35,826 bases of DNA from Candidatus Omnitrophota bacterium (lineage in GTDB: Bacteria; Omnitrophota; Gorgyraeia; JABMSB01): the NCBI GenBank assembly GCA_013202205.1, contig JABMSB010000081.1:1-35826 (forward strand), written 5' to 3'. Shown piece after piece: positions 35,346 to 35,465 of the stretch. The notes under the pieces were generated by a model that was given only the letters and a program-made list of their open reading frames with translations, did not search any database and was not told the origin of the DNA. The first letter of the stretch is position 1, and each line of letters begins with the position of its first letter. Position numbers and translations under genes: made by a program.

Positions 35346-35361
35346 GAAAAGGCTTTAAAAG

Positions 35362-35377
35362 AGGACAAAGGCGTCCT
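35362..35377 (+). promoter_or_regulatory. Hexaloop hairpin of ANTAR-target type in the gdhA leader
   Basis: AGGAC (35362-35366) pairs with GTCCT (35373-35377) around the hexaloop AAAGGC, which has A at position 1 and G at position 4 as in the RNA targets of ANTAR antiterminator proteins. Its right arm overlaps the left arm of the terminator, so the two are mutually exclusive. Binding by an ANTAR protein is inferred. Confidence 0.55.
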
Positions 35378-35414
35378 TTCTGTGTGCGGTTGCGCAGAGG
35401 AAGACGCTTTTTTT
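35371..35414 (+). terminator. Terminator/attenuator in the gdhA leader
   Basis: GCGTC (35371-35375) pairs with GACGC (35403-35407) at the base of a long hairpin whose upper part (CTGTGT with GCGCAG, loop GCGGTT) continues the stem with wobble pairs. Seven Ts follow (35408-35414). It lies about 50 bases before the start codon, so it attenuates gdhA unless relieved. A further hairpin CTGCTT/AAGCAG (35425-35443) lies before the ribosome site. Confidence 0.7.
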
Positions 35415-35465
35415 ATCTGCGTTGCTGCTTAACAATCAAGCAGTTACATATTAAGGAGGAGCGCG

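Follow-up and report, generated by a model that had tools for sequence, protein, structure and literature searches.

The leader of gdhA, the glutamate dehydrogenase gene at the end of the window (the whole 35,826-nt stretch of Candidatus Omnitrophota DNA that was analysed), is very probably a transcription attenuator under the control of the sole ANTAR protein of the genome (of GAF-ANTAR type), and one in which a single hexaloop hairpin is sufficient without an upstream P1 hairpin. We infer that ANTAR binding would relieve termination as follows, which is the simplest account and agrees with the anatomy of the leader. By default, the nascent leader would fold into an intrinsic terminator and transcription would stop before gdhA. 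The GAF-ANTAR protein, presumably a dimer, would have its ANTAR domain enabled by the active state of the GAF domain; the ANTAR domain would capture the lone hexaloop hairpin at the moment of its emergence, some 10-30 nt from the 5' end, with a conserved Tyr/Phe stacking on the flipped-out G4 by analogy with EutV. Capture would keep the loop and the 3' arm of the hairpin out of the terminator stem, so that polymerase would read into gdhA. Since the hexaloop fold is less stable than the terminated one by about 10 kcal/mol, the switch must act during transcription. The gdhA leader is one of a class-wide Omnitrophota set that would control the ANTAR gene itself along with genes for making glutamate and glutamine, taking up ammonium, and using glutamine. 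A first-pass annotation had read this leader as an ANTAR target, and its reading is supported with two corrections: there is no second loop, and the regulator is not a response regulator but a GAF-ANTAR protein. Its remark that known ANTAR targets often precede nitrogen genes agrees with Ramesh et al. (2012; PMC3369931).

The hairpin AGGAC-AAAGGC-GUCCU lies at positions 35362-35377 of the forward strand (AGGAC 35362-35366, loop AAAGGC 35367-35372, GUCCU 35373-35377), where the first-pass annotation had placed it; the whole ANTAR-type element, which is P2-like (antiterminator) and kept in relatives, extends over 35360-35379 (agaggac-AAAGGC-guccuuu). The six-base loop carries A1 (35367) and G4 (35370), as was claimed for it and as in the motif of Ramesh et al. 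(2012). On its own the hairpin has an unremarkable folding energy (-7.2 kcal/mol, z -1.7), and its weight comes from its conservation rather than from this energy. The intrinsic terminator (35367-35414, forward strand) pairs its left arm, 35367-35375 (AAAGGCGUC), with 35403-35411, has an inner stem between, and runs into a U tract (TTTTTTT, 35408-35414); its energy is -23.7 kcal/mol (z -4.6), which none of 200 shuffles equalled. The first-pass annotation had noted that the right arm of the hairpin shares bases with the left arm of this seven-T terminator, and the overlap proves larger than that: the left arm consists of the entire hexaloop, G4 included, plus GUC, with which the 3' arm begins. 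Since the terminator arm contains the complete hexaloop, G4, the base gripped by EutV, is hidden in the terminated form. When the hexaloop hairpin is enforced in folding of the leader, no stem is left beside the U tract; the two structures are thus mutually exclusive and share bases as in the motif of Ramesh et al. (2012). The sequence GCGGTT at the terminator tip had been proposed as the second expected loop, a proposal that does not hold: the tip favours UGUGC-GGUU-GCGCA with a tetraloop and is unconserved, the terminator loops of relatives being unrelated to GCGGTT, down to UAAAAA.

A sigma-70-type promoter missed by the first-pass annotation lies at 35317-35345 on the forward strand (TTGACA, 17 nt, extended -10 TG-TAAAAT), and places the expected transcript start near 35352, 10 nt before the hairpin. 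The predicted 5' end of the leader (35352-35361, forward strand, GCUUUAAAAG) is too short to hold an upstream P1 hairpin. Downstream are the Shine-Dalgarno sequence AAGGAGG (35453-35459, forward strand) and the ATG of gdhA (35466), whose reading frame runs on the forward strand to 35826, where it is cut by the contig end. A divergent nitroreductase-family gene (34674-35240, reverse strand) bounds the region open to the promoter and leader of gdhA. Positions 27952-34679, upstream of this divergent gene, hold a cluster resembling type IV pilus/type II secretion systems, with several prepilin-type N-termini and PilM-like and PilO-like proteins.

The region before gdhA was read in 29 relatives of the same class, leaders being picked by gene position before any model was built. 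Of the gdhA copies close behind another gene (gltD-type or glnA), most are without such a leader; in eight relatives gdhA has an apparent promoter of its own, and their leaders keep the hexaloop over a terminator, the conservation on which the first-pass annotation had staked its reading. Among these nine leaders, the window's included, GGACAAAGGCGUCC is identical in two relatives (G090 and G061), the G061 copy lying directly behind a GAF-ANTAR gene, and compensated variants are found in six (G095, G018, G049, G020, G096, and G050, the last with G at loop position 1). The RNAalifold consensus of the nine is the terminator, with both-side changes at three terminator pairs.

A covariance model (R1) built from the nine gdhA leaders was searched against 384 genomes of the same class at E<=0.01, and a leader was found in 172 of them, compared with about 4 expected by chance. 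ANTAR is present in 287 of the 384, nearly always once, and the two occur together (both 162, ANTAR only 125, leader only 10, neither 87; Fisher p 7e-17, uncorrected for phylogeny), such that 162 of 287 genomes with ANTAR have a leader, against 10 of 97 without; several of these ten are incomplete. In 110 leaders G4 is present in 100% (a figure that stems partly from selection by the model) and A1 in 90%, and the loops are mostly AAAGGC or AAAGAC. Among 96 distinct leaders the closing pair is C-G in 92, and the third stem pair is A-U in 36, G-C in 33, and G-U in 27, with the terminator partner changing along; the terminator right arm was located by complementarity, which biases the percentage of paired cells upward and the pattern of changes less so.

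The genes behind 111 of the best leaders include gdhA (25), FMN-type glutamate synthase (19, and one gltB), glnA (12), the flavoprotein partner of glutamate synthase (10), a small sigma-like protein (8), GAF-ANTAR (5), carB (5), carA (3), purF, purL, pyrG, and amt (2 each), glutamine-dependent NAD synthase (nadE, 1), with a few further genes; four of these identities (gdhA, glutamate synthase, glnA, and gltB) come from sequence recognition. By this tally of downstream genes, the predicted leader set ranges from the uptake of ammonium through the synthesis of glutamate and glutamine to amidotransferases that use glutamine. Without recourse to the RNA model, GAF-ANTAR genes of named relatives are found in purL-purF-pyrG-glnA-ANTAR and carB-purF-pyrG-ANTAR clusters, and when the surroundings of 80 named GAF-ANTAR genes were searched, each of the 17 leader matches was on the strand of the ANTAR gene.

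Some further features of the set may be recorded. The small sigma-70-like protein is a recurrent target in eight genomes (L253, L248, L256, L275, L269, L234, L117, and L230; also L169) and may add a further level to the nitrogen regulon. Two leader modules precede a single gene in tandem at G269:C1:539885-540113 and at L146 5676-5933; the latter precede the GAF-ANTAR gene itself, which suggests autoregulation. Outside Omnitrophota, similar leaders are found before glutamate synthase beside GAF-ANTAR genes in Desulfobacterota (L184, L190, and L197) and Aerophobetes (L154).

The conserved Omnitrophota hairpin is of the P2 type (antiterminator). In the motif of Ramesh et al. (2012) an upstream P1 hairpin, also with A1 and G4, precedes it at a linker of about 5-12 nt, and the gdhA leader has none: a search of 35241-35361 gave no hairpin with a 6- or 7-nt loop, G4, and at least 4 pairs. 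As the predicted start is only 10 nt before the hexaloop, the leader would have no room for one, and with the search for P1 having come up empty, the leader falls outside the published dual-hexaloop definition. The gdhA leader might nevertheless be an ordinary dual-hexaloop ANTAR target whose P1 was missed, either because transcription starts further upstream or because P1 is degenerate. Dual leaders do occur within the class (L094, L096, L104, and L109), clear dual hexaloops are found in the Desulfobacterota relatives (L184, L190, and L197), and a P1-like hairpin is present in 18 of 40 longer Omnitrophota leaders; but this alternative is rather improbable given the empty search region, a promoter with 11 of 12 consensus matches, and the company that the gdhA leader keeps. 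Start-to-hairpin distances of the Omnitrophota leaders, with the starts predicted from promoter consensus, fall into two groups, and in 30 leaders, that of gdhA among them, a promoter scoring at least 10 sets the start 1-15 nt before the hexaloop, compared with 1.0 in shuffles. The promoters of these short leaders are strong, and a P1-like hairpin is found in 1 of the 30, where it overlaps the promoter. The hexaloop hairpin is stronger in short than in longer leaders (-4.64 vs -3.23 kcal/mol, p 4e-5, a difference to which phylogeny may contribute), as expected if a single hairpin does the work of two; a GGAC/GUCC stem is found in 19 of 30 short leaders and 3 of 40 longer ones. Since the Desulfobacterota relatives keep the dual motif, the single-hexaloop form is probably derived.

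Many of the long Omnitrophota leaders have a P1 loop of seven bases in which A1 and G4 are kept (e.g., GGCAC-AAUGGCU-GUGCC); such loops were seen upstream of P2 in L089-L092, L097, L101, L254, L255, L262, and L272. The ANTAR loops known so far are hexaloops.

In published tests (Ramesh et al. 2012; PMC3369931), both hexaloops are needed for antitermination. Structural work on EutV left a contradiction, in that a dimer occupies a single hexaloop although two hexaloops are required for antitermination; whether single-hexaloop sites function was raised as a question by Walshe et al. (2022; PMC8934654), who called for work on it. In the open-licence literature no paper was found that links Omnitrophota with the ANTAR domain, and the term 'single hexaloop' was found to be used only by Walshe et al. 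The gdhA leader is predicted to act as an ANTAR antiterminator of a new, single-hexaloop form. We further think it reasonably likely that there is a natural class of single-hexaloop ANTAR antiterminators, in which the hexaloop at the extreme 5' end has a strengthened stem and one hairpin suffices, and that in Omnitrophota this class forms a global regulon for glutamate and glutamine that takes the place of P-II/Ntr control, the genomes often lacking P-II. With the dozens of leaders that have no room for a second hairpin, and the related two-hairpin leaders beside them, one could test directly what takes over from P1, candidates being 5'-end position, stem strength, and kinetics. They also give the uncultured phylum Omnitrophota a candidate global nitrogen regulon, with regulator and RNA target included.

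ANTAR control of nitrogen genes, gdhA among them, was reportedly described by Ueki and Lovley in 2010 for GnfK-GnfR of Geobacter sulfurreducens, which is said to differ in being a two-component response regulator system with a dual motif. Another comparison is with EutV/EutW and the eutP, eutG, eutS, and eutA leaders of Enterococcus faecalis, which according to PMC8934654 and PMC3369931 are alike in an A1/G4 hexaloop that overlaps the left arm of a terminator; the G4-contact residues of the EutV ANTAR domain are common to the GAF-ANTAR protein (PMC8934654). By the same sources, EutV differs in its need for P1 and P2 separated by a linker of 5-12 nt, and in being switched when its receiver domain is phosphorylated, whereas the Omnitrophota system has a single hexaloop, takes its input through a GAF domain, and is directed at nitrogen assimilation. 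Also comparable are the ANTAR leaders before glutamate synthase of Desulfotomaculum reducens and before nitrogen genes of D. acetoxidans and Pelobacter, which form nitrogen-assimilation regulons over several operons, as here; these leaders are dual-hairpin by search definition and are not from Omnitrophota, and the passages of Ramesh et al. (2012; PMC3369931) consulted here do not mention carAB, purF, purL, or pyrG among the targets. NasR/nasF of Klebsiella and AmiR/amiE of Pseudomonas use the same antitermination through an A1/G4 hexaloop, but differ in having NIT or pseudo-receiver inputs and nitrate or amide operons as targets, and P1 of nasF is essential (PMC3369936).

Two other accounts of the terminator fare worse. 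It could be constitutive or otherwise regulated, the hexaloop being due to chance and attenuation to a riboswitch, to a leader peptide, or to some RNA-binding protein other than ANTAR. The folding energy of the single hairpin, which is not unusual, is consistent with this, but the 10 nt before the hairpin are too short for a leader peptide, Rfam covariance models gave no match to the gdhA leader at gathering (unrelated chance matches only, at E>1 and far below gathering scores), and the conserved loop sequence, the ANTAR co-occurrence, and the linkage to gene clusters make such an account very unlikely. It is likewise hard to credit that ANTAR binds the leader without antitermination, the terminated leader acting, for example, as an EutX-like decoy by which ANTAR is titrated. 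The single hexaloops suggested for sequestering RNAs (PMC8934654) and the strong short-leader promoters might speak for this, but the leaders lie upstream of functionally coherent same-strand genes, and a decoy would be defeated by a terminated form that hides the loop itself.

For the attenuator controlled by ANTAR, the regulator would be the one ANTAR protein detected in the genome (G000; 1.5 Mb, 92% complete), which was found at E 1e-21 on contig C27. This protein has 240 residues, with a GAF domain followed by an ANTAR domain (PF03861; 75.1 bits against a curated cut-off of 27.3). When the hexaloop contacts of EutV, as listed in PMC8934654, are mapped by alignment, 8 of 11 are identical (R142, K143, K149, E160, Y164, R168, M172, and R175) and three are changed (K147 to R, which is conservative, N173 to D, and R177 to A); residues R189, K190, K196, E207, M219, and R222 of the GAF-ANTAR protein are invariant in 24 relatives. 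An AlphaFold model of good quality (mean pLDDT 86) consists of the GAF domain, then a single long helix, then two more helices at the C-terminus, and its closest solved folds are PtsP/EI-Ntr GAF domains (ranks 1-3), which are high by sequence too. Glutamine binding is reported for the EI-Ntr GAF domain (PMC4848567), and the best guess for the signal is glutamine or some other metabolite that reflects nitrogen status; as GAF is a broad family, glutamine is a lead only. Near relatives of the regulator in named genomes are mostly from Candidatus Omnitrophota. A search for P-II proteins found none in this genome and none in 15 of the 29 relatives searched, which leaves the GAF-ANTAR protein as a candidate main nitrogen regulator here.

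The window's contig (C73) ends inside gdhA and holds the single 5' part of this gene in the genome; the remaining 3' part is on C27, where it is followed on one strand by glnA and then the GAF-ANTAR gene. A gene order gdhA - glnA - ANTAR, interrupted by a break in the assembly that spans about a dozen codons, is therefore likely. Of the ANTAR-domain response regulator that the first-pass annotation had anticipated, the ANTAR gene is present, and in the gdhA-glnA cluster, but the product is no response regulator. Because glnA has promoter-like sequence of its own and terminator-like hairpins follow gdhA, these genes may be separate transcripts.

In the R1 search of this genome the only confident leader is that before gdhA. 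The same annotation had pointed to similar leaders before glnA and glnK-amtB; these were not found in this genome, where the gdhA-glnA gap has ordinary hairpins, but glnA and amt leaders occur in relatives. A second R1 match, before hisS (C50:8944, E 0.007), has no G4 hexaloop and was set aside as a chance terminator. Other near matches to GGACAAAGRYGTYC in the genome number 79, little more than the 53 of a reversed-pattern control, and were likewise rejected, the closest three being inside coding genes. The gap between glnA and the GAF-ANTAR gene contains, at about 850-930 of L052 (G000:C27), a long near-perfect inverted repeat, CAGACGTTTTC...GAAAACGTCTG enclosing GGGATAGTGTA...TACACTATCCC; it lies directly 5' of the GAF-ANTAR start codon and may be either a regulatory hairpin or a mobile palindrome of small size.
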